Source: an uncultured Victivallaceae bacterium (GTDB lineage Bacteria; Verrucomicrobiota; Lentisphaeria; Victivallales; Victivallaceae). From it: DNA of 64,000 bases. Below the pieces are notes generated by a model. The model worked only from the letters and a program-made list of their open reading frames with translations, searched no databases and had not been told where the DNA came from. The stretch's first letter is position 1, and every line of letters starts with the position of its first letter. Below are positions 5,010 to 58,708 of this stretch, one piece after another. The DNA is taken from NCBI GenBank assembly GCA_944392655.1, contig CALXXL010000001.1, positions 124,001 to 188,000 of the forward strand, written 5' to 3'. Both the position numbers and the translations under genes were made by a program.

Positions 5010-5543
5010 ATGGAAACAAGAAAAAACAGTGCGTTGAGTGTTGCCGCGGTGGTTGTGGTGACTTTGATTATTTTCGGTGTGCTTCTGTCGGCTTATATTT
5101 ATAATGACTGGTTCCACAGCATATTCATCAACAAGCCGGCGGATCAGCAGGTTATAGGTGAAGTTCCGCAGGCCAGCAAAGAGAGCATTGCCGCATATAA
5201 AGAGATGATTGGGCTGATGGTGTTCGGGATATTCTCGGTTATGATCAGTCTTCAGGTGGTGATTTTCGGAACAGCGATAATTGTCGCGAAAAACATTATA
5301 AAGTCGGTTGGCGAAGCGAAGCTGAAACTTAAGAAGCTGGAAAACGCGGAAATTTTCTTTGACCTGCCGCTCTATGCCGGGTTATTTGGTACGGTAGCGA
5401 GTTTTATGGTGATTGCATTCAGCCGTGAATCGAGTCTTCTCATCGCCTATTCGACCACGCTTATGGGGATTATTTTCAGCGTACTGCTCCGGGTATCGGT
5501 ACTGTATCCGGCCAAACGTTCTCTGCTTAATGAAGTAAAATAA
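5010..5543 (+). CDS. MotA/TolQ/ExbB-like membrane protein
   Basis: A 177-residue membrane protein with four hydrophobic segments (about residues 8-31, 65-94, 117-137, 142-166). The last two resemble the proton-channel core of MotA/TolQ/ExbB: a Leu-rich GLFGTV motif (124-129, with T128) entering one helix and STTLMGIIFSVLLR (148-161) in the next, matching the conserved pore Thr positions of ExbB/TolQ. The family forms pentameric ion channels that power a partner. The next gene, 18 bp downstream, encodes a MotB/ExbD-like single-span protein, which strengthens the call. A strong AAGGGGGA and a closer TAAGGA precede the ATG. The large cytoplasmic loop of MotA is reduced to a short charged stretch (residues 98-115). 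A direct homology search is needed for proof. Confidence 0.55.
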   Translation: METRKNSALSVAAVVVVTLIIFGVLLSAYIYNDWFHSIFINKPADQQVIGEVPQASKESIAAYKEMIGLMVFGIFSVMISLQVVIFGTAIIVAKNIIKSVGEAKLKLKKLENAEIFFDLPLYAGLFGTVASFMVIAFSRESSLLIAYSTTLMGIIFSVLLRVSVLYPAKRSLLNEVK

Positions 5544-5561
5544 AGAAGTCGGGAGCGGAAA

Positions 5562-7400
5562 GTGAATAAGTCGGTATTGATAGTAATTTGCGACTTCGTC
5601 GTACTTTCGATGATGACGCTGATAATCGGGCTGAGCGGTCCGCAGCAGGGTGTTGGAGGCACAGGGCGTTCCACATCGGACATTGCGGCGAGTTCGGTGC
5701 TTCTGGAGGCGTTGACTGAACGCAGTATTGAATTGGCGCGGGTGCGTCAGGAGTTGGAAGAGCTCCGCCGACAGCGTGAACTGACTCCGGATGAAGTAAA
5801 GAAGCTGGAAGAGCTTACGCGTGAATTGGCGGCGAACATGGTTAAATCCGATGAGCTTGCCAAGGAGCAGTCGCTGACGGATGAAACCCGTGGCGAGAAG
5901 AGTGCGGCTGAGCTTCAGCGTGAATTGCAGGAGGCGGCACGGCGTTATGCGATGCTTGAACTGGAAGCGAAAGGCGCGGCAGGCGATGCTGAGTATTACA
6001 AAGAGCTTCTGGCCGGCAAAGAGGCGGCGATTGCCGAGAATCAGGCGGAATTGAACCGTATGCGTCAGGAGATGCTTGAAAGCGGCAAAAAACTGACAGA
6101 GAAAGAGAATGAATTGATAGAATCCGGCAATCAGGTTGTTGCGGCGCAGCAGGAGTTGATCCGGACTAAAGCGTCGCTGGCTGAGACGGAATCAGCGTTG
6201 GCCAATGCCCGCAGTATGCTGGATCAGCGTGCTGGCGAATTGAATATAGCCAAGAGTGAATTGGCCAAAAGTACCGGAGAGATAACGGACTATCAGGAGC
6301 TTATCCGGCAGACTCAGTTGGAGATGTCGTTCATTTCCGGCAAGTTGTCGGCAACGGAGCGTGAACTTGCGGAGACGCGGAGTCAGCTTGAGGTAACGCG
6401 CCAGACGGCGGGCAAGCATGAGCTGGAGGCGGCGGATGCCAAAAAGCAGTTGACCAGTCTGCAGGGAGTGCTTAAGAAAGCGGTGAATGATCTTTCCGAA
6501 GCGAAGAGTGAGGTCAAAGACCTGCGCGGCAAGGAAGAGGAGTTTATGGCTTCCAAAAAGCAGCTGGCGCAATTGCAGGGAGAGGTCAAGACCAGTCAGG
6601 CTGAATTGGATGCGGCGCGGGAGCGTCTGGCCAAGGCTGAAGCGGATCTCCGCAGTGATGTTTATGAACACTATTCCGATGCGGTGCGCAAACTTTCCGT
6701 GCATCTGGCTGAACGGCGGACGCTGGTGGATCATCGCAGTGACTTCAGTTTTTATCTGCCGGAAGTGGAACTGGATGGCCGCAGATTTCTTATTTCCGAA
6801 CTTCTCTCAGTAACCGACATGGGTGAAATCAATACACCGTATAGCCGTATTTATGAGTTGGGCTTTGCGGTAGATAAGGATCGTGGAGTGCGGCACTTTT
6901 ACAGTGTGAACGCAGATCCGCGTCTGGTATTGCTTGAAGTTGACAGTGTTGAAGGTGGCAAAGCCTTGCCGGTAATCCGTTACAGTGAACTGAAGAAGCG
7001 CGGGTTGCACGACCTGTATTTATTTCGCAAGGGGGCGTTGGGCAGTGAATCGGCGCCGCTGGCGGAACGTGTGTCGATGGACATGGTAGGGGATGAGCCT
7101 TATTTATACGTCCGTAATTCGACCAGCCGTTCAAACAGTGAGTTAAAAGCGGAAACTGGAGATTTCATTTTAACCAAGCAGGGTGAGTTTGTCGGTGTGG
7201 TTGTTGCGCTGGAAAACTTTGATTTGAACAGTAAACAGGAAGCGCGGGTTGCTCTGTTCCCGGACAACTTCAAATTGGATGCGCTTACCGAGGTTCCGCT
7301 CAACAAGCAGGGTGAATACTTTGCCGGATTCATTGCCGGCATGGAAGAGTTGTTCCGCAAGGTGCAGTTGGCCAACCGTGTGCAGAGAGTGCGTAAATAA
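5562..7400 (+). CDS. MotB/ExbD-like anchored coiled-coil protein with C-terminal globular domain
   Basis: A 612-residue protein starting at a GTG preceded by GGGAGCGG. Its N-terminus, VICDFVVLSMMTLIIGLSG (residues 8-26), is a single membrane span opening with an Asp-Phe (D11), like the ion-carrying Asp of MotB and ExbD. Residues about 40-375 are an almost uninterrupted heptad-rich coiled coil (Leu, Glu, Lys, Ala, Gln), probably periplasmic. The last 240 residues form a globular domain that vaguely recalls a trypsin-like fold: LVLLEVDSVEGGKALPV, then TGDFILTKQGEFVGVVVA at the place where a protease would carry GDSGGP, but without Ser and without an obvious His, so presumably inactive. It lies between the MotA-like gene and a receptor kinase, with about 18-bp gaps. 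No OmpA peptidoglycan-binding domain is visible. Confidence 0.6.
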   Translation: MNKSVLIVICDFVVLSMMTLIIGLSGPQQGVGGTGRSTSDIAASSVLLEALTERSIELARVRQELEELRRQRELTPDEVKKLEELTRELAANMVKSDELAKEQSLTDETRGEKSAAELQRELQEAARRYAMLELEAKGAAGDAEYYKELLAGKEAAIAENQAELNRMRQEMLESGKKLTEKENELIESGNQVVAAQQELIRTKASLAETESALANARSMLDQRAGELNIAKSELAKSTGEITDYQELIRQTQLEMSFISGKLSATERELAETRSQLEVTRQTAGKHELEAADAKKQLTSLQGVLKKAVNDLSEAKSEVKDLRGKEEEFMASKKQLAQLQGEVKTSQAELDAARERLAKAEADLRSDVYEHYSDAVRKLSVHLAERRTLVDHRSDFSFYLPEVELDGRRFLISELLSVTDMGEINTPYSRIYELGFAVDKDRGVRHFYSVNADPRLVLLEVDSVEGGKALPVIRYSELKKRGLHDLYLFRKGALGSESAPLAERVSMDMVGDEPYLYVRNSTSRSNSELKAETGDFILTKQGEFVGVVVALENFDLNSKQEARVALFPDNFKLDALTEVPLNKQGEYFAGFIAGMEELFRKVQLANRVQRVRK

Positions 7401-7418
7401 GGTTGATTATTTTTGGTC

Positions 7419-10013
7419 ATGAATAATGAGCCGGAAAAAAAAGTGCGGTTTGATGAAGATGCGACTCTGAATGTAGAGGCTGCGGTTGAGCATATTGAGC
7501 GCCAGCTGTCTCCGGATGAGTTGCGTAATATCCTGGATTTGAAGCAACCGGATCAGTTCGGGGATTTTTCGGAAAACAGCACAATAGGCGTTGGCGGCAT
7601 CGGAGCGGTATTTGCCGTGCATGATTCGCAGTTCAACCGTTTGGTAGCATTGAAGGTGCTGCGTCCGGCTTATCGCAATGACTCGAAATATATTGACAAT
7701 TTTGTCCGTGAAGCGCGTATAACGGCGCAGATCGATCATCCGAACGTAGTGCCGGTGCATCAGCTTGGTGTATTGAAGGATGCCGGCGCTTATTTCACGA
7801 TGAAGCTGGTTGAGGGTGAGAATCTGCGGGTTATCCTGAAGAAGCTGGAGAGCGGCGAACCGGAATATCTGAAAAAATACACGCTCAACCATTTGCTGGA
7901 CATTTTCCTTGCGGTATGCAACGGGGTAAGTTTTGCTCACAGTAAAGGGATTATCCACCGGGATTTAAAGCCCGGGAATGTCATGGTCGGCTCCTATGGT
8001 GAAGTTCTGGTGATGGATTGGGGGTTGGCCAAATACCGTGCGGATCAGGATTCGGCCACAACTGGTCAGAAGATCGATTTGAACAGTGAAATTTTCCAGG
8101 CGGTGGACAACGATGTAAAGACGCAGTTTGACACTATTGCTGGAACACTGCATGGAACTCCGGCATTTATGGCTCCGGAACAGGCCAGAGGCAATTCTGA
8201 AGAAATAGACGAACGTACGGACATTTACGGTCTTGGTACAATTCTGTACTCTATATTGACGTGGAAGCGTTCGCGTTTTGATCCTGATTTACCTGTGGAA
8301 GAGATATTGCGCAAGGTTGTTGCCGGAGATTTTCCGCCTCCGGGGAAAGCTGTTCCCAGGAAGCGTGTGCCGGTTGAGCTGGAGGCGATCTGCCTCAAGG
8401 CCATGGCGCACGATAAAGGGGATCGTTATCTATCGGTACAGGGATTGATACGCGATATACACAACTATCGTGAAAATTTTCCGGTCAGCGCCTATTCAAA
8501 CAAGGTATTTTACCGTGGAATTAAATACTGCCAGAGGAAGCCGATGCTGCCATTCAGTATTCTGGTGGGATTTTTTTCGATAATGATGGCGGCGATCATT
8601 ATGGCAGTTGCGGCGGTATTGCGGGCCAATCCTGTTATTGAGACGATAGACGAGCATATAGCGGTTGGTGATCGTGAGATGCTTGAGGCTCAGGAGCTTG
8701 CCAACTACCGTAAACAAATGATTGCAGACGGTGGTGAATTGAGTTACAGTGAAGCTCAGGAGCTGCGCAGTCGTATAGATGAAGCAACGACAGAAGCGGA
8801 GAAGCGTTATCTGGTTGCCCGGGATCTTCTCACTCAACTTGAAGGGGCAAATATTTCTCCTGAGCGTCTTAATGCGGCGCTTGGAGGTATGTTTGCCAAG
8901 CAACTGGAACTTGCGTTGCTACTGGAAGATTTTGACGGAGTGAGAGACATATACGAGCGCATTAACATTCGCAATTCCGGTCTTCGAGCTTATATGGCGA
9001 CGATGTATCCTGCGTTGATGGAGCAGGTAAGTCAGATTGTGCGTGCGGAAGGCTATGTGGAATTTGCGGTTGAGCCTGCTGATACGGAGATAAATCTCTA
9101 TCGTATGGACATTTCTGGCAAATATACGGATGGCGTAGGCGGTTATGAACTGCTGGGAAGCGCGACCGGGAGTATGGAGATGCCGTTGAGTGAGGGGGGC
9201 TATCTGGTTCGTCTTAACAGTCCGTCCGGAGTTGAGGTTTTTTATCCTTTACTGATAAAACCGGGGGATTATCTTGAGAAAACGCTGAAGATGCCTGCTG
9301 AAATTCCTGAAGGCACAGTGTATGTTCCCGGCGGTGAATTCCGTTATGGTTTTGATTTTGCGCCCGGGTTGTACCGGAAAGAGGATTTACCGGGATTTTT
9401 CATCGGCCGGCATGAAGTCACATTGGGAGAATATCAGAAATTCTTCAATGATTTGCGGGATGAATTTGAGCGTAAGAAATATATGCCGCTACACATATTC
9501 TCCAAAGAGGAGCGTAATTTTGAGCCGATATTCCAGGTGGATGGCTCAATTCGTGCGCCGTTTACGGCGGACATGCCGGTGACAGGTATCAACTATGAGG
9601 CAGCAGAGGCCTATTGCCGCTGGTATGGGGAACAGCACGGGGTAGTTTGCCGTCTGCCGTCGAATCTGGAATGGGAGAAGGCGGCTCGTGGTATTGATGG
9701 GCGGAATTATGTATGGGGTAATTCGTTCAAGCCGGAAAATGCATTATATTTGGAGAATCCTAAATTAAAAGAGTATATGAATGGCGCAGAAGTCGGGTTA
9801 TTTCCTTTGGACTGTTCGGTATATGGTGCGATGGATATGGCAGGCAACGTGCGTGAATATGTAAGCAGTGAGGATGAGAGTTTTCCGCGGATGGTCAAAG
9901 GCGGCAGTTTTGATACTACGCAGTTTACGCTGATGTGTGCAGCCTTTGGCCGTTCTTACGAGAATGAGAACGACAGTGGCTTTAGAATTTTGATAGAGTC
10001 GGACAGTAATTGA
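7419..10013 (+). CDS. Membrane Ser/Thr protein kinase with extracytoplasmic FGE/SUMF1 domain
   Basis: A receptor-like Hanks kinase of 864 residues. The kinase domain (about residues 45-345) has the Gly loop GVGGIGAVFAV, VALKVL, the catalytic loop HRDLKPGNVM, a DWG variant of DFG, and GTPAFMAPEQA in the activation segment. One transmembrane helix follows at about residues 376-398 (FSILVGFFSIMMAAIIMAV). A linker with helical stretches leads to a formylglycine-generating-enzyme/C-type-lectin fold (about 630-862): VPGGEFRYG, RHEVTLGEYQKF, CRLPSNLEWEKAARG, MAGNVREYV and GGSFDTT. This layout is known in planctomycetes and relatives, where the outer domain is thought to bind ligands rather than oxidise Cys. 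I prefer the ATG at 7419 to an upstream in-frame TTG. It is probably cotranscribed with the MotA/MotB-like pair. Confidence 0.88.
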   Translation: MNNEPEKKVRFDEDATLNVEAAVEHIERQLSPDELRNILDLKQPDQFGDFSENSTIGVGGIGAVFAVHDSQFNRLVALKVLRPAYRNDSKYIDNFVREARITAQIDHPNVVPVHQLGVLKDAGAYFTMKLVEGENLRVILKKLESGEPEYLKKYTLNHLLDIFLAVCNGVSFAHSKGIIHRDLKPGNVMVGSYGEVLVMDWGLAKYRADQDSATTGQKIDLNSEIFQAVDNDVKTQFDTIAGTLHGTPAFMAPEQARGNSEEIDERTDIYGLGTILYSILTWKRSRFDPDLPVEEILRKVVAGDFPPPGKAVPRKRVPVELEAICLKAMAHDKGDRYLSVQGLIRDIHNYRENFPVSAYSNKVFYRGIKYCQRKPMLPFSILVGFFSIMMAAIIMAVAAVLRANPVIETIDEHIAVGDREMLEAQELANYRKQMIADGGELSYSEAQELRSRIDEATTEAEKRYLVARDLLTQLEGANISPERLNAALGGMFAKQLELALLLEDFDGVRDIYERINIRNSGLRAYMATMYPALMEQVSQIVRAEGYVEFAVEPADTEINLYRMDISGKYTDGVGGYELLGSATGSMEMPLSEGGYLVRLNSPSGVEVFYPLLIKPGDYLEKTLKMPAEIPEGTVYVPGGEFRYGFDFAPGLYRKEDLPGFFIGRHEVTLGEYQKFFNDLRDEFERKKYMPLHIFSKEERNFEPIFQVDGSIRAPFTADMPVTGINYEAAEAYCRWYGEQHGVVCRLPSNLEWEKAARGIDGRNYVWGNSFKPENALYLENPKLKEYMNGAEVGLFPLDCSVYGAMDMAGNVREYVSSEDESFPRMVKGGSFDTTQFTLMCAAFGRSYENENDSGFRILIESDSN

Positions 10014-10019
10014 GGATAT

Positions 10020-11984
10020 ATGATTGATTTTATAGGGGTTGAGAAGAATTTTGCGGACAAGACTATTCTCAACCGTATATCATTCCGGATCAATTCCGGA
10101 GAGCGGGTTGGACTGGTTGGGCCCAATGGGGCGGGCAAGAGTACGATTTTCAACCTGATAACGGGGGAACTCACACCTGACCGGGGTGAGGTTGTAATTC
10201 CCAAGCGGATGCGTATCGGTTACCTGAAGCAGCAACTGCTGGCGAGTGATCTGGATTGTCCGTTGCTGGATTACACGGCGGATGCGGTATCTGCGATTGC
10301 GGATATTTCATCAGAGATAGAGGAGATCGAGTCGGCGCTCGAGCGTTACCCGGCTGAATCGGAAGAGCGCCAGGTGGCATTGAACCGGCTTGGGGTATTG
10401 CAAACGGAATTTGAGCATCTGGGGGGATATCGTCTGCGTCCGGAGGCTGAAGCTGCATTGTGCTCTCTGGGGTTCAAGCCGACAGACATGGGGCGTCCGA
10501 TGAATGATTTTTCCGGGGGCTGGCAGATGAGGGCGACGTTGGCGCGTACACTTATAGCTGATCCGGATATTCTTCTTCTGGATGAACCGTCCAACTATCT
10601 TGATGTGCCGGCAGTTGAGTGGCTTTGCAAATTCCTGCGTTCTTACAAAGGCACGATAGTATTGATCTCCCACGACCGTTTTATGCTGGACAAACTAACT
10701 TCGGTAACTCTGGAACTTTCAGATGGTCAGATTACCCGTTATAACGGCAGTTACACGGTATATCGTGAGGAGCGCGAGGCGCGTAAGGTGGCGCTTGATG
10801 CGGCAAAAAAGAATATAGAGAAGCGCAAGAAGGATCTGGAGCGCAATATAGAGCGGTTCCGCTATAAGAGTTCGAAGGCGTCGCAGGCGCAGTCGTGGCA
10901 GAAGCAGTTGGATAAGATAGCGGATGTGGTGACGATTTCTGATGATTTGAGTTATCGTGGAGCGATAAGATTTCCGGAGCCGCCGCCATGCGGAGCTGAA
11001 GCGGCGCGATTTGAACATGTAACGTTTGGCTATGATCCTGCTAAACCGGTTTTGCGGGATGTTTCGTTAAATATCAACCATGGAGAAAAGATAGCGTTCA
11101 TCGGTTATAACGGCATGGGCAAGACCACGTTGCTGAAACTGCTTGCTGGGGTGTTGAAGCCGCAGGAGGGGCGGGTTGTTCCGGGGCACAATGTTATAAT
11201 CGGCTATCAGGCGCAGGAGTTTGGGGAACTGCTGCCGGGAGAGATGTCGGTATTTGACGTGGTGCGTGCCGCTTGCGGGCGTGATTTCCCGGTGGCATCG
11301 CTGCCGAATGTGCTTGGCAGTTTCGGTTTTTCCGGCAGAGACCAGTCGAAGCTGTGCAAGGTGCTGTCCGGTGGGGAGAAGATCCGGCTCTGTTTTGCCA
11401 GGATATTTGTCAATCCGCCGAATCTTCTGGTATTGGACGAACCGACGACGCACCTGGATATCTCGGCGCGTGAGATGTTGCAGAACATGGTAAAAAGCTA
11501 CAAAGGGACGGTATGTTTTGTCAGTCACGATATTGAATTTATCCGTGGTACGGCGGAGTTGATTTTTACGGTTACGCCATCAGGTGTTCGTAAATACTTC
11601 GGTAATTACGATTATTATACGGAGAAGTTGGCACAGGAGAATGCTGCCGCTACGCCGGTGACGGCGGCGGAACAGCCGCGGGGGGGAGCATCGGATGCCA
11701 GGAACCGGCGTCGTGAACGTGCGCAGGAGCGTGCGCGTTTAGCGCCTTTGCGCCGCAGTCTGGAACGCAGGATTGCTGCGGCAGAGGCGGAGATAGATAA
11801 AAAGGAGGCGCGTAAAAAGGAGCTGCTGGAGCTGTTGTCCGGCGGAGGGAATGTTGATTATGCCGGTTGCAACCGTGAATTGGGCTGGCTGGATCATGAG
11901 ATAGAAGAGTTATCTGCCGAATGGGAATCGGCGGCTACTGAATTAATGGAACTACAGGAAAAGACGGCTGAGCAGGAGAGGTAA
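10020..11984 (+). CDS. ABC-F family ATPase
   Basis: A 654-residue protein with two ABC ATPase domains and no membrane segments. Domain 1 has Walker A GPNGAGKS near residue 38 and signature FSGGWQMR with LLLDEPSNYLD; domain 2 has GYNGMGKT near residue 360 and LSGGEKIRL with LVLDEPTTHLD. A basic linker (AKKNIEKRKKDLERNIERF) joins them, and a charged coiled-coil tail follows residue 555. ABC-F proteins act on the ribosome E site, relieving stalls or giving antibiotic resistance. The long C-terminal coil recalls Uup/YheS-type members, but the subfamily cannot be fixed by eye. It starts 6 bp after the kinase gene with GAGGAT as ribosome site. Confidence 0.9.
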   Translation: MIDFIGVEKNFADKTILNRISFRINSGERVGLVGPNGAGKSTIFNLITGELTPDRGEVVIPKRMRIGYLKQQLLASDLDCPLLDYTADAVSAIADISSEIEEIESALERYPAESEERQVALNRLGVLQTEFEHLGGYRLRPEAEAALCSLGFKPTDMGRPMNDFSGGWQMRATLARTLIADPDILLLDEPSNYLDVPAVEWLCKFLRSYKGTIVLISHDRFMLDKLTSVTLELSDGQITRYNGSYTVYREEREARKVALDAAKKNIEKRKKDLERNIERFRYKSSKASQAQSWQKQLDKIADVVTISDDLSYRGAIRFPEPPPCGAEAARFEHVTFGYDPAKPVLRDVSLNINHGEKIAFIGYNGMGKTTLLKLLAGVLKPQEGRVVPGHNVIIGYQAQEFGELLPGEMSVFDVVRAACGRDFPVASLPNVLGSFGFSGRDQSKLCKVLSGGEKIRLCFARIFVNPPNLLVLDEPTTHLDISAREMLQNMVKSYKGTVCFVSHDIEFIRGTAELIFTVTPSGVRKYFGNYDYYTEKLAQENAAATPVTAAEQPRGGASDARNRRRERAQERARLAPLRRSLERRIAAAEAEIDKKEARKKELLELLSGGGNVDYAGCNRELGWLDHEIEELSAEWESAATELMELQEKTAEQER

Positions 11985-18551: not shown

Positions 18552-19484
18552 ATGAAATTGAGATGTAAAAGTTGCCGTCATGAATTTTTATCAGACGAAC
18601 TGGCGGATTTTGATGGCCATTGTCCCTCCTGTGGAGCGGCAATGGCGGGTGATTTTTCCGGGGGCTGTATAGATGAGTTTCAGGTGCTGGCGGAACTTGG
18701 GCGCGGCAATAATGGTGTGGTGTTTCTGGCCCGTCAATATGGGGTGAACCGTGAGGTGGCATTGAAGATAATGCTGGAGGATTCGCTCAAAGAGGCCGAT
18801 GGGGTGGCGAAATTTTTCAGTGAAGCGCGTGCAGTGGCAAAATTGAACCATCCGAACATAGTGCAGGCGATTGCGGCGGGCAAGATGGAGTCCGGTAATT
18901 TCTATTTTGCAATGGAACTGGTGGAAGGGCCGTCGGTGGAGAATTTGCTGGATGCGTCCGGTGCACTGCCTTTTAGTGATGCTCTGGCAATTGGTGAAGC
19001 TATTGCGCAGGCGATGGCCTACGGTTGGGATAAGCGTGGTCTTATACACGGGGATATCAAGCCGGGGAATATAATTTTACAGCATGGTAAGACGCCTAAG
19101 CTGGCGGATCTGGGGCTGGCGCAGTTTCACAAAGTAGTTCCGGGTGACATTATGGCGACGCCGTTATATGCGCCGCCTGAGGTTATCCGCGGTGATTTTG
19201 CGCACATGTCCTTTTATTCTGATATTTACAGTTTTGGCGCGACATTGTACGAGATGTTTTCCGGCGATCCGCCATTTCCCGGCAATGATATAGATCTGGT
19301 GCTGAAAATGCAGCTGGAGCAGACTCCGGAGTCTCTGGTGGCGAAACTTGGATTATTTCAGCCGGAATTGTCGGAATTTATTGACCGTATGCTGGCCAAA
19401 GATCCGTCCGGTCGTCCCGGTTCGTGGGATGAGGTGGCGGATTTTCTCTCCGCAATGTACGAGAAGCACAAAAGTTCCCATTAA
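18552..19484 (+). CDS. Cytoplasmic Ser/Thr protein kinase with N-terminal zinc ribbon
   Basis: A 310-residue soluble kinase. It opens with a zinc-ribbon (CKSC at residues 5-8 and CPSC about 20 residues later), followed by a Hanks kinase domain from about residue 40: LGRGNNGVVFLA, VALKIM, the catalytic loop HGDIKPGNI (Arg of HRD replaced by Gly, suggesting no activation-loop phosphorylation control), DLG in place of DFG, and YAPPEV. No membrane segment or sensor domain follows. GAGAGG lies about 12 bp before the ATG. Substrates are unknown; it stands alone upstream of a pseudopilin gene. Confidence 0.88.
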   Translation: MKLRCKSCRHEFLSDELADFDGHCPSCGAAMAGDFSGGCIDEFQVLAELGRGNNGVVFLARQYGVNREVALKIMLEDSLKEADGVAKFFSEARAVAKLNHPNIVQAIAAGKMESGNFYFAMELVEGPSVENLLDASGALPFSDALAIGEAIAQAMAYGWDKRGLIHGDIKPGNIILQHGKTPKLADLGLAQFHKVVPGDIMATPLYAPPEVIRGDFAHMSFYSDIYSFGATLYEMFSGDPPFPGNDIDLVLKMQLEQTPESLVAKLGLFQPELSEFIDRMLAKDPSGRPGSWDEVADFLSAMYEKHKSSH

Positions 19485-32222: not shown

Positions 32223-34808
32223 ATGGCTGAACATTTTGGCGGCATGGCCAATTTCACTCCGCGGGCGCAGCATGTACTGGTGCTGGCGCAGAAGGAGGCG
32301 GAGCGTTTTAATCATGATTTTGTCGGAACGGAGCATCTGCTTTTAGCGTTGCTGGCTTTCAACGAGGGAGTTGCGGTAGAGGTACTGCGCAAGATGGGGT
32401 TGAATCTGGACGAACTGCGTCTGGAGGTGGAAAAATCCTGCGGGGCGAGCGGCACTACGAAAGTAAGCGGTTATATTCCATTGACAGACCGACTTAAACG
32501 GGTGCTGATACTTTCTGCGGCTGAAGCGCGTGGAATGAATTACAATTTTATTGGTACAGAGCATCTATTACTTGCGTTGCTGCGGGATGGTTCCAGTGTC
32601 GCGGCGCGTCTTCTGCAGAATCTGAATATCAATTTGAAGGCGGTGCGGCGCGAGGTTCTGAAGGCGCTGGATTCCGACTATATTCCTGACGATGATGAAG
32701 CAGATGATGAAAACGAAGTTTCTCCGGATGGCGGTGGTACTCCGGGGGCATCCAGTCAGGGTGGTGAGTGTCCGACTTTGAACTCTTTCGGGCGCAATCT
32801 CACGGAGTTGGCGCAGAATGGTGGTCTGGATCCGGTGATCGGGCGGCGCAATGAGATAGAGCGTATTATACAGGTGCTTTGCCGCCGGACGAAGAACAAT
32901 CCGGTTCTAATCGGGGAGGCCGGTGTAGGCAAGACGGCGATACTTGAGGGATTGGCGCAGGCGATTGCCGACCGCCGTGTACCTGAGCTTCTGCTGGACA
33001 AAAAGATCTACGCACTGGATCTGCCTTTGATGATTGCGGGTACGAAGTACCGCGGTCAGTTTGAAGAGCGTATAAAGGCGGTGATTGACGAGGTTCGCAA
33101 CTCCGGCCAGATAATTCTGTTTATTGACGAACTGCACACGATAGTCGGTGCCGGTGGAGCAGAGGGTGCGATGGATGCGGCGAACATCATAAAACCGGCA
33201 TTATCGCGCGGCGAACTGCAATGTGTTGGGGCCACTACGCTGGACGAATACCGCAAAGGCATAGAGAAGGATGCGGCGCTGGAGCGTCGTTTTCAGCCGA
33301 TTATAGTCAATCCGCCGACAGTGGATGAGACGATCGCCATACTTGAGGGGTTGAGTAAAACCTACGAAGAACATCATCATGTTGTTTACACGCACGATGC
33401 GCTGGTGGCGGCGGTGCGTCTGTCGGACCGTTATATAACCAACCGCTTCCTGCCGGACAAGGCGATAGATGTGCTTGATGAAACTGGCGCGCGGATTCGG
33501 ATATTGAATACTCTGCCTCCTTTGGACACCAGTGAATTGCAATCGAAGCTGGAAGAGGCGCAGGCGAAGAAACGCCAGGCGGTGAGTGACCAGCAGTTTG
33601 AGCTTGCGGCCAGTTGGCGTGACAAGGCTGAGGCGATTGCAGACGAGATTGCGGCGGCGGAGAAGAGCTATCGGGAGAAATCGGCGGCGAACCGTCCGGT
33701 AATAGATGCCGGAGCGATTGCGGATGTTGTAGCCAAACTTACCGGTATTCCGGTGCAGCAGATAGAGTCGAGTGAAACGCAGAAACTTCTGCATCTGGAG
33801 GATGAGTTGAAGCGTGTGGTCATTGGTCAGGACGAGGCGGTGGCCACGGTGGCGCGTGCATTGCGTCGCAGCCGGGCGGACTTAAAGGATCCGGCCCGTC
33901 CGATCGGGTCATTCATCTTTCTGGGGCCGACGGGAGTGGGCAAGACATTGCTGGCCAAGGAGCTGGCGGAAATAGTTTTCGGCAGTCCGGATGCGCTGGT
34001 GCAGGTGGATATGTCGGAATATATGGAAAAATTCAATGTTTCGCGTCTGGTTGGTTCGCCTCCGGGTTATGTCGGACATGGGGAAGGTGGCGAGCTGACT
34101 GAAAAGGTGCGTCGTCGTCCTTATTCGGTGGTGCTGTTTGACGAGATTGAAAAAGCGCATCCGGATGTTGCGCATCTTCTGTTGCAGATACTTGAAGAGG
34201 GTAAGCTGACAGATTCACTGGGACGCCGGATCGATTTCAGTAACACTGTGGTTATTATGACGAGCAACGTCGGTGCGGAGCAGTTGGTCAAAGGCAATAC
34301 TGCGTTGGGCTTCTCTTCCGGAAACACGGCTTCTGAGGCGGCGAAAGCGGAAGAGCGTCTGCTTGCGATAGCGAAGAAGCACTTCAAGCCGGAATTTCTG
34401 AACCGGCTGGATGATATTGTGCTCTTCCGTCAGCTTGGCAAAGAGGATCTGGTGCGGATAGTTGATCTTGAGATCAGTGAAGTTGCGTCCCGGTTGAAGC
34501 AGAAGCAGCTTGAGCTTGTGGTTGCTCCGGAGGTAAAAGATTTCCTGATACAGAAAGGTTATCAGGTTGAATATGGTGCGCGTCCATTGCGCCGGGCGGT
34601 TCAGCGTTATCTGGAAGATCCTCTGGCGGAGGAACTGTTGAAGGGTTATTTCCGGGATGCGGCGCGGATTCGTGCAGAGATGGACAACGGCAAACTGCTG
34701 TTTTTTCCGGAGAAGGCGGAGAAGAAGCCGGCGGTTAAGCGTCGGCGCAGCTCGGGAGAATCCGGGTCAAAACGTCCGCGTGGCAAGCGTAAAGAAGATC
34801 AGGAATGA
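32223..34808 (+). CDS. clpC: ATP-dependent Clp protease ATPase subunit ClpC
   Basis: An 861-residue Hsp100 unfoldase. Two Clp-N repeats occupy the first 150 residues ([31 protein letters not shown]). AAA domain 1 has [19 protein letters not shown]; a linker with a UVR-like segment ([14 protein letters not shown]) marks it as ClpC rather than ClpB, which would have a long middle coil. AAA domain 2 has [16 protein letters not shown] and the [21 protein letters not shown] end. A ClpP-binding loop is expected in domain 2. The C-terminal 40 residues are very basic and low in complexity. The stop overlaps the next start (ATGA). Confidence 0.95.
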
Positions 34809-36502
34809 GCGAAGAGTATTTTGACGTTTACAACGCCGCGGGCGAACATATTGGCCGTCGTCTGCGGCGGGAGTGTCACGGCAATCCGGAGTTGATCCAC
34901 CGGGCGGTGCATGTAGTGATTTTCCATCCGGAAAGGCCGCAGTTATTGTTGCAGAAGCGCAATTCTAAAAAAGACATTCAACCCGGCAAGTGGGATACTG
35001 CGGTTGGCGGTCATCTGGATGCGGGGGAGGACTATCTTACTGCGGCGCGGCGTGAGATGGGGGAAGAGCTGGGTCTGCGCGGTGATTTTGAATTGAAAGA
35101 GCTGTTTGACAGCAAGATCCGCAACGATATAGAGTCTGAAGATGTACGGGTATTCGGTCTGCGGCACAGCGGACCGTTTACAATCCAGCCGTCGGAGCTT
35201 GATGCGGCGGAATTCTGGGATTATCCGGAGTTGTTCAAGCCGGAGAACCGGGTGGAATTCACGCCGAATCTATGTGCGGAGCTGGATAGGCTTAGAGAGC
35301 TCGGCTATATTGTTCTGCCGGATGACGATGCGCCTCCGTCCGTCGGAGGGGAATCCCGGCGGCTGAAGACTGACGTGCTATCGCTTATCGGTGCGGTTGT
35401 AGTTGGGGTGCTGTTTCTTCTGGCGCTTGCGGCGCCATTGCTGGCGAATGGCCGTCCATTTTTCATATTCAACGGTGGGACTGGAGAATGGAGTTTTCCA
35501 TTTTTAAGATATATCTTTGCTCCGGATACCACCGAGGTAGTGATAGAGAAGCTCTTTAATTTTCTGTTGCTTTATCTGCCTCTGCTGGGGGTGGTGCGGC
35601 TGATATTCCGTGGCCGCTGGCGGAAAACGGCCGGATTAACTTCAGCGGTTCTGCTTGCATTGCCTTTTTTTCTGGTTCAGCCCAGGTTGGATAAAACAGA
35701 TTACCGTGTGCTTGTGGAACATCTGCCATCCGGGTCGCGATACTGTTTTGCCCCTATTCCCTATGGACCTTATGAACTGGTAACCGTGCCGTACGCCGCG
35801 CCCTCTTCCGCTCATATTTTCGGCGGGGATCAGGTTGGGCGCGATGTTGCCAGCCGGATGCTGTATGGCGGGCGTGTTTCGCTGGCGGTTGGTATCGGAG
35901 CCACAGTTATAGCGCTTGGGATAGGCACGGTTATTGGACTGGTGTGCGGATTTTTCGGCGGCTGGGTGGATATGGCGGTAATGCGTGTGGTGGAGATAGT
36001 GATCTGTTTTCCCACGTTTCTGCTTTTGCTGATATTGATGGCGATCTTCCGGGATTACAAATTTGAGCAATCGATACTTATAGTTATCGGGGTAATCGGT
36101 TTAACCGGCTGGATCGGGGTATGCCAGCTGGTGCGGGGGGAGGTTTTGCGTCAGCGTGAGCTTCCTTATATACAGAGCTGTATAGCTTCCGGTATATCAA
36201 CATGGCGGACGCTTTTCCGGCATCTTCTGCCGAATGTGGCAGCTCCGGTGATAATCACTTTTACTTTCAGTGTAGCCGGGGCGATTTTAGCAGAGAGCAC
36301 GCTGAGTTTCCTTGGTTTCGGGGTGCAGCCGCCAACGGCGAGCTGGGGAGGGCTGCTGCGCCAGGCCTATGAGAACCCGCTGGATTACTGGCATTTGATG
36401 GTGATCCCCGGGGCGGCGCTGTTTTTTGCGGTTTGCGGGTTCAACTTTACCGGAGAAGGGCTTCGGGCAGTTCTGGATCCCAAGTCGGGTGTATCGCGCT
36501 GA
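34805..36502 (+). CDS. Fusion of a Nudix hydrolase and an OppC/DppC-type ABC permease
   Basis: One open frame of 565 residues. Residues 1 to about 170 are a Nudix hydrolase of the YfcD/IPP-isomerase-like type (YFDVYNAAGEHIGRR; Nudix box GHLDAGE...REMGEELGL with all Glu residues). After a short acidic linker, hydrophobic segments begin at about 188; residues 337-560 form a complete OppC-like permease (HIFGGDQVGRDV, ASGISTWRTLFRHLLPN with the EAA loop, STLSFLGFGVQPPTASWG). No stop, frameshift or in-frame ATG lies at the junction, so a single polypeptide is expected. The partner permease, ATPases and binding protein are absent from the window. The start overlaps the clpC stop by 4 bp. The gene ends 2 bp from the convergent carboxypeptidase stop. 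Confidence 0.88.
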   Translation: MSEEYFDVYNAAGEHIGRRLRRECHGNPELIHRAVHVVIFHPERPQLLLQKRNSKKDIQPGKWDTAVGGHLDAGEDYLTAARREMGEELGLRGDFELKELFDSKIRNDIESEDVRVFGLRHSGPFTIQPSELDAAEFWDYPELFKPENRVEFTPNLCAELDRLRELGYIVLPDDDAPPSVGGESRRLKTDVLSLIGAVVVGVLFLLALAAPLLANGRPFFIFNGGTGEWSFPFLRYIFAPDTTEVVIEKLFNFLLLYLPLLGVVRLIFRGRWRKTAGLTSAVLLALPFFLVQPRLDKTDYRVLVEHLPSGSRYCFAPIPYGPYELVTVPYAAPSSAHIFGGDQVGRDVASRMLYGGRVSLAVGIGATVIALGIGTVIGLVCGFFGGWVDMAVMRVVEIVICFPTFLLLLILMAIFRDYKFEQSILIVIGVIGLTGWIGVCQLVRGEVLRQRELPYIQSCIASGISTWRTLFRHLLPNVAAPVIITFTFSVAGAILAESTLSFLGFGVQPPTASWGGLLRQAYENPLDYWHLMVIPGAALFFAVCGFNFTGEGLRAVLDPKSGVSR

Positions 36503-48464: not shown

Positions 48465-49535
48465 ATGGTATCCCGTGTAATTGCCATAGACGGACCTGCG
48501 GCGTCTGGTAAGAGCAGTGTAGCGTCGCGTGTGGCGGACTATTTTGGCATTCCTTATATCAGTACCGGCAGCATGTACCGTGCGATAGCTTATGTAGCGT
48601 CTGGTGAAGGTGTTGACTGTGGTAATGCCAGTGCTGAGCTGCTGAAGCCGGTATTGAGCAAACTTCAAATGAGTTATGTAGCCACTGCCAATGGCATGCA
48701 GCTATGTGTAAACGGCAAATTTCCCACCTCTGAACTTCGCAGTGAAAAGGTAGCGGCGCTTACCAGTGTTATTGCAGCTATACCGGAAGTACGTATCTGG
48801 CTGAGTGTAAAGCAGCGTGAGCTTGCCGGTGCCGGCTGGATAGTGATGGAGGGGCGTGATATTGGCAGTGAGATTTTTCCTGATGCGGCGATGAAGTTTT
48901 ATTTAACTGCTTCGCCGTGGGTGCGTGCCAAACGCCGTATGGCGCAGAAAGGGGAGACGGTATCGGGGGCGACGCTGGAAGAGGTTGCTGAAGCGATATC
49001 GGCGCGTGACCGTCAGGACTCGCAGCGGAAGGTCAGTCCATTAAAGATAGCCGATGGAGCGACGGTAATCGACTCGTCGGATTTTGAATTGGATGAAACG
49101 GTTGGTGTATTTATAAAATTAATCAGTCGTCACCGTTGTGAATATCGGGTGCCATATGCGGACACGGATCAGATGGGGGTGGTCTATTACGCCAACTATC
49201 TGGAATATTTTGAGCGTGGTCGTACGGAGATGCTGCGTTCGGTTGGCTTTTCCTATCGTGATATGGAAAAGATGGGTGTATTCATGCCGGTGGCGGAGGC
49301 GACGTGCCACTACTATGCTCCGGCGCGTTATGATGATCTTTTGACGATCCATTCGTGGATAATCTCGGCCCGCGGGGCGCGGATGGTGATCGGCAGTGAA
49401 ATTTATTGTGGGGATAAACTTCTGGTGAAGGGTTCGGTAACGTTGGGCTGCATAGACGGCAGTCGTAAGCTGGTGCGTTTGCCGGAGAATCTGATAAAAG
49501 CGTGTTCGATTTATCTCGAGCGGGAGGAGAAATAA
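48465..49535 (+). CDS. cmk: Fusion of cytidylate kinase and YbgC/FadM-type acyl-CoA thioesterase
   Basis: One frame of 356 residues. Residues 1 to about 220 are a complete CMP kinase: P-loop DGPAASGKSSVA, ISTGSMYRAIAY, VMEGRDIGSEIFPDA and the LID region ARDRQDSQRKVSPL. Residues about 224-356 are a hotdog-fold thioesterase: YRVPYADTDQMGVVYYANYL contains the catalytic Asp and helix start of the YbgC/4-hydroxybenzoyl-CoA thioesterase family. The junction (VGVFIKLISRHRCEYRV) is tight and has no Met, so the two are made as one protein. GGAGGCGG precedes the ATG. Confidence 0.92.
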   Translation: MVSRVIAIDGPAASGKSSVASRVADYFGIPYISTGSMYRAIAYVASGEGVDCGNASAELLKPVLSKLQMSYVATANGMQLCVNGKFPTSELRSEKVAALTSVIAAIPEVRIWLSVKQRELAGAGWIVMEGRDIGSEIFPDAAMKFYLTASPWVRAKRRMAQKGETVSGATLEEVAEAISARDRQDSQRKVSPLKIADGATVIDSSDFELDETVGVFIKLISRHRCEYRVPYADTDQMGVVYYANYLEYFERGRTEMLRSVGFSYRDMEKMGVFMPVAEATCHYYAPARYDDLLTIHSWIISARGARMVIGSEIYCGDKLLVKGSVTLGCIDGSRKLVRLPENLIKACSIYLEREEK

Positions 49536-54200: not shown

Positions 54201-55499
54201 CTATTCCCACTCGATTGTCGCGGTTGGTTTCGGAGAGAGGTCGAAGCATACGCGGTTGACGTGTGGTACTTCGGCGAGGATGCGTTTAGTGATATTCTGC
54301 AGAACCTGCCATGGCAGCTCCGGCACCTCTGCGGTCATTGCGTCGACGGTATTTACGGCGCGCATGATAACCGGCCAGTCGAAGCATCTGGCATTATCTC
54401 TTACTCCTACGGATTTAAAATCCGGAACGATGGTAAAGTATTGCCAAACCTTGCCTTCGAGACCGCATTTAGCGAACTCTTCGCGCATAATTGCGTCGGA
54501 TTCGCGTACGGCTTCGAGACGGTCGCGGGTGATAGCTCCGAGGCATCGTACGCCGAGCCCGGGGCCGGGGAACGGCTGGCGGAAGACCATATTATCGGGC
54601 AATCCGAGAGCCTTGCCGCAGGCGCGGACTTCATCTTTAAAGAGCATTTTAAGTGGTTCGACCAGTTCAAACTGCAAATCTTCCGGGAGTCCGCCTACAT
54701 TGTGATGGCTTTTAACCATCTTGGCGGTCTTGGTTCCGCTTTCGACGATATCGGGATAGATGGTTCCCTGAGCGAGGAATTCAATGCCGTCGAGCTTGCG
54801 GGCTTCTTCTTCGAATACGCGGATGAACTCTGCGCCGATAATCTTGCGTTTTTCTTCGGGATCTGCTACTCCGGCGAGTTTATCGAGGAAGCGGTCGACG
54901 GCGTCGACATATATCAAATTGGCATTGAGTTCGTTTCTGAACACCTGTACCACCTGTTCTGGTTCTCCCTTGCGGAGGAGGCCGTGGTTGACGTGGACGC
55001 AGGTAAGCTGATTGCCGATTGCCTTGATAAGGAGGGCGGCGACGACGCTGGAGTCAACGCCGCCGGAGAGTGCGAGCAAAACTTTGCGGTTGCCGACCTG
55101 TTTGCGAATTAGTTCGATCTGGTCAGCGATAAAGTTTTCCATATTCCAGTTAGGAGTAGCTTTGCACTGATCGAATACGAAAGAGCGGATGGCGTCGGCG
55201 ATTTCGCCGTCGCATTCAGGCATGGGATTGATCTTGCCGTTTTCGTTGTAGTCAAAAGTATAGATGGGGAATCCGGCGTTTTTAACTTCGTCGGAGAGGC
55301 CGATTTTAACGCCGTTGACCACGTCGTTTGGTCCGCCGTTGGCGATAATACCGCGGACATTTGGGAGAGCCTTGAGCTCACTTGCGGTGATATCGAAGTT
55401 GCAAATTTCGCTGTAAACGCCGAGTTTGCGTATAGCGCGGGCGACGTCGGTATTGCGGGTGCTGCCCATATCGAGGACAACGATCATATCCTGTTTCAT
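54201..55499 (-). CDS. GMP-synthase paralogue lacking a functional glutaminase domain
   Basis: 432 residues, against 516 for the canonical GuaA at 57158-58708. The ATP-pyrophosphatase part is intact: P-loop ALSGGVDSS (residues 143-151), [31 protein letters not shown] and the C-terminal dimer end KPTATIEWE. The glutaminase part is reduced by about 80 residues: it keeps the first strands (IVVLDMGSTRNTDVARAIR, GIIANGGPNDVV) but the Cys-bearing GICYG is YTFDYN and the His-x-Glu pair is gone. It should therefore use free ammonia, or an ammonia-supplying partner, to aminate XMP or a related nucleotide. It heads an operon with rsmD and the kinase-like gene. Confidence 0.88.
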   Translation of the reverse strand: MKQDMIVVLDMGSTRNTDVARAIRKLGVYSEICNFDITASELKALPNVRGIIANGGPNDVVNGVKIGLSDEVKNAGFPIYTFDYNENGKINPMPECDGEIADAIRSFVFDQCKATPNWNMENFIADQIELIRKQVGNRKVLLALSGGVDSSVVAALLIKAIGNQLTCVHVNHGLLRKGEPEQVVQVFRNELNANLIYVDAVDRFLDKLAGVADPEEKRKIIGAEFIRVFEEEARKLDGIEFLAQGTIYPDIVESGTKTAKMVKSHHNVGGLPEDLQFELVEPLKMLFKDEVRACGKALGLPDNMVFRQPFPGPGLGVRCLGAITRDRLEAVRESDAIMREEFAKCGLEGKVWQYFTIVPDFKSVGVRDNARCFDWPVIMRAVNTVDAMTAEVPELPWQVLQNITKRILAEVPHVNRVCFDLSPKPTATIEWE

Positions 55500-57157: not shown

Positions 57158-58708
57158 TTATTCCCACTCGATGGTGCCCGGTGGTTTGCTGGTGATGTCG
57201 TAGACAACGCGGTTGACGCCGGCAACTTCGTTGATAATGCGCGAAGATATCCGGCCGAGGAGGTCGTACGGCAGGTGAACCCAGTCGGCGGTCATGCCGT
57301 CGGCGGAGTCGACCGCGCGCAGGACGATCACATAGTCGTAGGTGCGTTCGTCGCCCATTACGCCGACGGTGCGCAGGGGCAGGAATACGGCGAAGGTCTG
57401 CCAGATGGAGAAATAGAGTCCGGCCTTTTTAATTTCGTCGACCACGATTTCGTCGGCATTGCGCAGGATATCGAGTGTTTTCTGTGATACAGCGCCGAGG
57501 TGGCGTACAGCGAGTCCGGGTCCGGGGAACGGCTGGCGCATCACCACATCTTCGGGCAGTCCGAGCTGGCGGCCGACTTCGCGCACTTCGTCTTTAAAGA
57601 GTCTGCTCAATGGTTCGAGCAGTTTGAATTTCATTTCCTTGGGGAGTCCGCCGACGTTGTGATGACTTTTGATCATGGCGGATGGGTTGCCGTCAATCGG
57701 CACCGACTCAATCACATCGGGGTATGTGGTACCCTGAGCGAGGAAAACGGCATTTTCAATGGAGTTTGCAGCTTCGTCAAAGACCTGGACGAACTCTCTG
57801 CCGATAATTTTGCGTTTACGCTCCGGCTCTTCAACTCCGGCGAGTGCGTCAAGGAACCGTTCAGTAGCGTCGACATATTTAAGATTGATTTTAAAATTTC
57901 TGCCGTATAATTCCTGAACTCTTTCAGCCTCGTTTTTGCGCAGGAGGCCGTTGTTGACAAAGATGCATGTAAGCTGATTACCGATAGCCTTATGAATAAG
58001 TGCGGCAGCGACGCTGGAGTCGACGCCGCCGGAGAGACCCAGAATCACCTGTTCGGAACCGACGGTTTTGCGGATATCTTCAACCGCCTGATCGATAAAC
58101 GAGCGCATAGTCCAGTTGCCCTTGCATCCGCAGATTTTATGGCAGTAGTTGGCGATGATCTCTTTACCCTGAACGGAGTGAACCACTTCCGGGTGGAACT
58201 GGATACCGTAGAGGTTGCGTTCTGGGAAGCATACTGCGCCATACTCGGTGTTATCGCTTACCGCGAGTACCTCGATTTTTCCTTCGGGGAGTTTCACCAC
58301 CTTGTCGCCGTGCGACATCCACACAACGGTTTCTGCGTCTACACCGGCGAAGAGATTGTCAAAATTCTTCACTTTGAGGACAGTTTTGCCATATTCGCGG
58401 GCCTTGCCTCTGGCGACTTCGCCGCCCAGTGTTACCATCATAAGCTGGAGTCCGTAGCAGATGCCCAGCACGGGAACATTGAGGTTGAATATTTCCGGAT
58501 CGCACTTTGGTGCGTTTTCGGCGTAGACGCTGGAAGGGCCACCTGAGAGAATAATGCCTTTAGGATTTTCGGCAGCGATAATGTCGGCGCTGGTGTAATA
58601 AGGCAGGATTTTGCTGTAAACGTTGCATTCGCGGATCCGGCGTGCAATTAGCTGACTGTACTGCGAGCCGAAATCCAGAACTATGATAGTTTCTGTTTGT
58701 TCTGACAT
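57158..58708 (-). CDS. guaA: GMP synthase (glutamine-hydrolysing)
   Basis: A 516-residue enzyme converting XMP to GMP. The glutaminase domain has the nucleophile C84 in GICYGLQLM and H172/E174 in FHPEVVHS. The ATP-pyrophosphatase domain has [31 protein letters not shown] and [18 protein letters not shown]; the C-terminus KPPGTIEWE closes the dimerisation domain. It serves as reference for the reduced paralogue about 1.7 kb away. The 245-bp gap to the next gene (58709-58953) is AT-rich and probably contains divergent promoters; none is convincing. Confidence 0.97.

Follow-up and report, generated by a model that had tools for sequence, protein, structure and literature searches.

Two adjacent genes of the window, the whole stretch of 64,000 nucleotides that was analysed, encode a multi-span membrane protein (A) and a partner with a single aspartate-bearing span (B). 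Together they make up a conserved pair with the same layout as MotAB, ExbBD, and GldLM, which is spread across Verrucomicrobiota and Lentisphaerota and lies outside the catalogued protein families. We interpret the A–B pair as a diverged ion-driven motor of the 5:2 type, in which A would form the ring and B the axle, with a probability of roughly 0.6. A wider proposal, held tentatively and at somewhat less than even odds, is that the pair represents a separate, undescribed family of ion-driven motors of Verrucomicrobiota and Lentisphaerota, whose axle would be a periplasmic drive shaft of 30–60 nm and whose serine-less HtrA-fold head would act on a target in the envelope.

Locus and distribution of the gene pair

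The features of the locus are listed in Table 1. The B gene started at a GTG codon, separated from the stop codon of A by 18 bp. For the kinase gene K, the in-frame ATG at 7419 was a likelier start than the TTG at 7413, and the ABC-F gene started 6 bp past the end of K.

Table 1. Coordinates of the A–B pair, the parts of B, and the two following genes in the window.
Feature	Position	Strand	Basis
A: 177-aa, four-span MotA/ExbB-like subunit	5010..5543	+	relatives, AlphaFold, structure alignments, hhalign
B: 612-aa MotB/ExbD-like partner with one D11-bearing span, long coil, and HtrA-fold C-terminal domain	5562..7400	+	
Single membrane span of B, residues 5–23 (D11 codon 5592–5594)	5574..5630	+	hydropathy
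Coil of B, residues 26–364, 339 aa	5637..6653	+	composition: 0.6% Pro, 42% DEKRQ
Trypsin/HtrA-fold C-terminal domain of B	6654..7397	+	AlphaFold, Foldseek, structure alignment
K: Hanks-type kinase, one span, and FGE-like outer domain	7413..10013	+	profile matches, hydropathy
ABC-F type ATPase gene, fourth gene of the cluster in the window's family	10020..11984	+	neighbourhood conservation

Elsewhere in the window, two GMP-synthase-like genes were present (54201–55499 and 57158–58708), the amidotransferase part of the first being shortened. Single open frames combined a Nudix-like domain with an ABC transporter permease-like part (34805–36502) and a cytidylate-kinase-like part with a YbgC-like thioesterase part (48465–49535).

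A single-sequence search detected A in 125 of the 388 genomes of the phylum, usually as one copy per genome, and a profile built from 61 A proteins gave the same genome count. The main match in each genome had an E value of 8e-38 or better. The relatives included Victivallaceae and Lentisphaerota metagenome-assembled genomes, Lentisphaerota strain zth2, strain WC36, and Pontiella sulfatireligans. When the loci were read, a B gene with the aspartate-bearing N-terminal motif was located directly 3′ of A for 96 of 97 distinct A proteins, and the A and B genes commonly overlapped by 4 bp. The N-terminus of B opened with a short basic segment, continued as a hydrophobic stretch, and then read D-[FV]. 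The only A without an adjoining B was that of locus L052 (6573–8243), where an lpxA-like acyltransferase gene followed.

Scanning of a contig collection with the single protein A gave no match, and a diverse A alignment (A1) offered no stretch of sufficient conservation for such a scan. A narrower A alignment (A4), whose single motif does not capture long-form A, found 53 loci in the contig collection, all labelled Lentisphaerota, Kiritimatiellota, Verrucomicrobiota, or 'uncultured bacterium'; the pair may also occur outside the phylum. No description of the A–B pair was found in a literature search of open-licence papers.

Subunit A and the MotA/ExbB/TolQ superfamily

Subunit A contained four hydrophobic spans (about residues 8–26, 74–92, 119–137, and 142–160) and the motifs GLFGTV (residues 124–129, including Thr128) and STTLMG (residues 148–153). 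The motifs and the position of B downstream had been described in the first-pass annotation, and both coordinates and motifs were confirmed. Residues Gln82, Asp118, Leu121, Tyr122, Gly124, Ala146, Tyr147, and Gly153 were invariant among 97 sequences. Residue 128 was Thr or Ser in all 97, and residue 150 was either Thr (81 sequences) or Asn (16 sequences) in every one; the spans that carry these two positions would line a pore. The basic residues at the N-terminus, the middle loop, and the C-terminus of the sequence are consistent with an N-in/C-in topology like that of MotA. The AlphaFold model of A (pLDDT 92.6) was composed of helices at residues 2–31, 33–39, 54–98, 103–132, and 139–176.

A formed the C-terminal part of an open frame of 520–840 aa in many genomes belonging to other classes, and a few of these long forms gave a weak second match within the same frame. 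An N-terminal addition of about 400 residues with spans of its own, which had no Pfam match, stood ahead of A in loci L037, L051, L059, and similar loci; it is probably a periplasmic extension.

Curated motor models from Pfam, NCBIfam, and PADLOC gave no MotA, ExbB, ExbD, Zor, or Gld match to A or B. The MotA/ExbB-type family PF01618 was absent among the families listed for A, which did not score above the Pfam gathering cut-off, and was not among the 25 families listed, of 93, for 61 A members (E up to 10). The same model detected four other genes in the window's genome, and A was not among them. When A was compared by hhalign with 32 ExbB/TolQ-type proteins of related genomes, the whole protein gave a weak P value of 0.004–0.005 and residues 62–177 gave 0.0014–0.0026, with a low HH probability of 8–18%. 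The alignment was in register, with GLFGTV placed on GLFGTV and TTLMG placed on TTAAG. For a 97-row alignment of A, the real score was reached by none of 120 block-shuffled profiles and by no reversed profile; for a 61-row alignment, the top of 60 shuffles came near to the real score (25.2 vs 25.6). Five unrelated membrane families scored at most 15.2. The comparison with MotA/ExbB profiles suggested in the first-pass annotation gave no match by curated profiles but a weak one between profiles.

The top nine Foldseek matches of the A model were all ExbB or TolQ structures, at non-significant E values of 0.66 to 1.6. VIA-align gave Z values of 8.3 for ZorA, 8.1 for ExbB, 7.9 for TolQ, and 7.4 for both PomA and MotA, and 110 residues of A were superposed on ZorA at 3.6 Å. 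About 22 of the 50 rows of the list belonged to the MotA/ExbB/TolQ superfamily. The fold of A alone is no proof of kinship, because designed bundles scored higher in the same list, where unrelated and designed helical bundles reached a Z of 9.5. A search of solved structures with the A profile returned designed and unrelated helical proteins only. The sequence statistics are marginal, and a Z of 7–8 for a helical bundle can arise by chance. We regard A as a highly divergent protein within the MotA/ExbB/TolQ superfamily, one that has four spans like MotA and scarcely any cytoplasmic domain.

Partner B and the neighbouring kinase

The sole membrane span of B, VLIVICDFVVLSMMTLIIGL (residues ~5–23), encloses Asp11 and Phe12. 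An earlier reading had the span open with the Asp-Phe pair; the single span and the pair were both present, but Asp11 was located inside the span and not at its opening. Conservation of Asp11 in homologues had been set beforehand as a test, and the residue was one of two invariant columns among 56 aligned B proteins. An hhalign comparison of the first 45 residues with ExbD gave a non-significant P value of 0.16 with Asp aligned on Asp; some of the 24 ExbD rows were out of frame, which weakens this comparison. The proposal of a stator family was supported by the invariant Asp11, by the A motifs in ExbB register, and by the similar predicted fold, but not by curated profiles.

The coil of B and the globular end behind it agreed with the ~330-residue coil proposed earlier. 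Because a straight coil of 339 residues would measure about 50 nm, which exceeds the usual periplasm, the coil may be bent or folded. Among B relatives, the coil length varied from 195 to 400 aa, corresponding to 29–59 nm if straight. The sequence profile of B against solved structures matched generic coils only.

The C-terminal head domain of B was predicted with a pLDDT of 93.7 to have the trypsin/HtrA fold, with a best Foldseek E value of 8.9e-6 (HtrA1) and a Z of 12.1 to HtrA3. The site corresponding to GDSGG reads GDF, and residues Gly533, Asp534, Gly541, and Gly545 were conserved. At this site, B relatives had GD followed by Phe, Leu, Val, or another hydrophobic residue (sampled rows and column counts), and the catalytic serine motif (SGG) was absent from the head of the aligned relatives sampled. 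Because the serine motif is missing, the head is most likely a binding module, which would bind rather than cut a partner. No ExbD or OmpA-like periplasmic domain was detected in B by Pfam.

The HtrA fold of the head, with its Z of about 12, could also point to a membrane-tethered device for protein quality, in which the head would serve as a chaperone or substrate holder and A would merely oligomerise B. This explanation is very improbable; the serine motif is missing in aligned relatives, no PDZ domain was detected in B by profile search, and Asp11 and the Thr/Gly motifs of A are left unexplained. A passive envelope scaffold is a better alternative, but an unlikely one. In such a scaffold, A would anchor B, the coil and head would bridge the inner membrane to the outer layers, and Asp11 would be a structural hydrogen-bonder with no ion flow. 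The long coil of variable length, the serine-less head, and the failure of curated libraries to match the pair significantly to any known motor are all compatible with it. However, an invariant aspartate in a hydrophobic span, together with the GLxGT and TxxG motifs of the partner in ExbB register, is more than an anchor needs, and a motor formed by A and B is the preferred reading.

The product of K matched the FGE-sulfatase (E 1.3e-33) and Pkinase (E 4.1e-32) models, with one span at residues ~383–401 and an FGE-like outer domain at residues 634–859; its earlier description as a transmembrane Hanks kinase with an FGE-like outer domain was correct. The kinase motifs were VALK, HRDLKPGN, and DWG, so that the Lys, HRD, and DFG-type elements were all there, and by sequence K is a Hanks-type Ser/Thr kinase. 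The FGE-like domain also matched the GldK model (8e-16). The catalytic cysteine pair of FGE-type domains, as in the human enzyme, was not evident by eye after the GGS of residues 830–832, and the domain may therefore bind and not catalyse. Another Hanks-type kinase, smaller than K at 310 aa and with a zinc-ribbon-like stretch at its N-terminus, was encoded at 18552–19484 of the window.

Thirty distinct loci had K directly 3′ of B, with a gap mostly below 150 bp, and almost all of these loci belonged to the window's own family. The presence of the kinase next to A–B in further genomes, which had been set beforehand as a test, was thus confirmed. The pair occurred without K in the sister family and in Kiritimatiellae and Verrucomicrobiae loci, and was K-free in most lineages. 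Full-length K orthologues (36–39% identity) with no adjoining A–B were present in families f4, f5, and f8, and A was not found in those of these K-bearing genomes that were searched. In the K tree, the f4, f5, and f8 proteins were nested within the pair-adjacent K proteins, which fits an ancestral A–B–K cluster with later loss of A–B. Locus L218, labelled in the tree as non-adjacent, had the A–B–K layout, and L220 had a distant kinase only; the number of label changes on the tree is therefore not relied on. A pair-adjacent K examined in one relative had no FGE match. The ABC-F gene followed K directly in 18 of the 28 distinct K-bearing loci with room (hand count); it is part of the conserved neighbourhood, with no obvious functional link to a motor.

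A machine in which K is the obligate sensor or controller of the A–B channel would account for the close spacing in 30 loci and is compatible with the K tree, but it is improbable in view of the K-less pairs, the full-length K without A–B, and the pair-adjacent K that lacks an FGE match. Because of its distribution, K is not regarded as an obligate part of A–B, and the claim in the first-pass annotation that the kinase is integral was not upheld. K is a common yet separable neighbour of the pair, in a lineage-specific gene neighbourhood.

Proposed mechanism and comparison with known systems

In the proposed motor, a ring of A would be embedded in the inner membrane, with its last two spans bearing the hydroxyl at residue 128 and the Thr or Asn at residue 150. 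Two B spans would be located inside the ring, presumably in a 5:2 assembly, with Asp11 as the ion carrier. Ion flow through Asp11 and residues 128 and 150 would rotate or displace A with respect to B, and the work would be relayed outward along the rod-like coil to the HtrA-fold head. This outward relay through the coil is the simplest arrangement because A has almost no cytoplasmic domain. The serine-less head would probably bind a partner in the outer periplasm. In Victivallaceae, K could be an accessory receptor kinase, which might monitor the motor or control it.

The known ion-driven 5:2 motors comprise few types, namely those of flagella, Ton, Tol, gliding, and Zorya. If A–B is a motor, it would extend this small set by a machine with a new kind of head domain and a transmission in the form of a rod, and the envelope of Verrucomicrobiota and Lentisphaerota, of which little is known, would gain an energised component that can be tested. 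The pair was missed by curated profiles and is normally single-copy, in about a third of the phylum genomes sampled.

MotAB and PomAB share with the pair the four spans of A, N-in/C-in by charge, and the single Asp-bearing span at the start of B. The Asp-bearing start of the MotB span is ADF, and that of B is CDF. In place of the torque domain of MotA, the A subunit here has just a helical hairpin, and no OmpA-like peptidoglycan domain was detected in B. In ExbBD and TolQR (PF01618/PF02472), a multi-span subunit likewise adjoins a single-span partner with a membrane aspartate, the GLxGTV and TxxG motifs align in the weak profile comparison, and the last three helices of the A model superpose, at Z values that chance could also give. 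However, A here has a fourth span and a short cytoplasmic hairpin, and where ExbD has its small fold, B has a long coil with an HtrA-fold head.

ZorA gave the top Z among motor proteins (8.3), and the Zorya machine also contains a very long coil. The Zorya coil is the cytoplasmic tail of ZorA, whereas the coil here is on B and is predicted to be periplasmic. Zorya was considered on account of the coil and rejected; the PADLOC models for Zor proteins matched neither the window's A and B nor the relatives scanned. A stator phylogeny places ZorAB apart as remote (PMC12505986).

The 5:2 motor GldLM shows no obvious homology to MotAB in its sequence, and its axle shaft measures 18 nm (PMC9389320). 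Its axle is a long periplasmic shaft, as proposed for B, and the GldK match of the FGE-like domain of K is a further likeness. In contrast, A and B had no GldL or GldM profile match, A has four spans, and the head of B has the HtrA fold.

TolQ-like proteins pair with vWA partners that carry an Asp-bearing transpore helix, as reported in Verrucomicrobia, and further systems of a TolQ-like protein with an Asp-bearing partner are expected (PMC12204202). As in the A–B pair, the Asp-bearing span of the partner carries its own globular domain that is not of the ExbD type. In those systems the A component is a recognisable TolQ homologue, the head is a vWA domain, and the pairs are mostly heterologous, whereas here A is unrecognised by curated profiles and each A has one B, with a coil and an HtrA-fold head.
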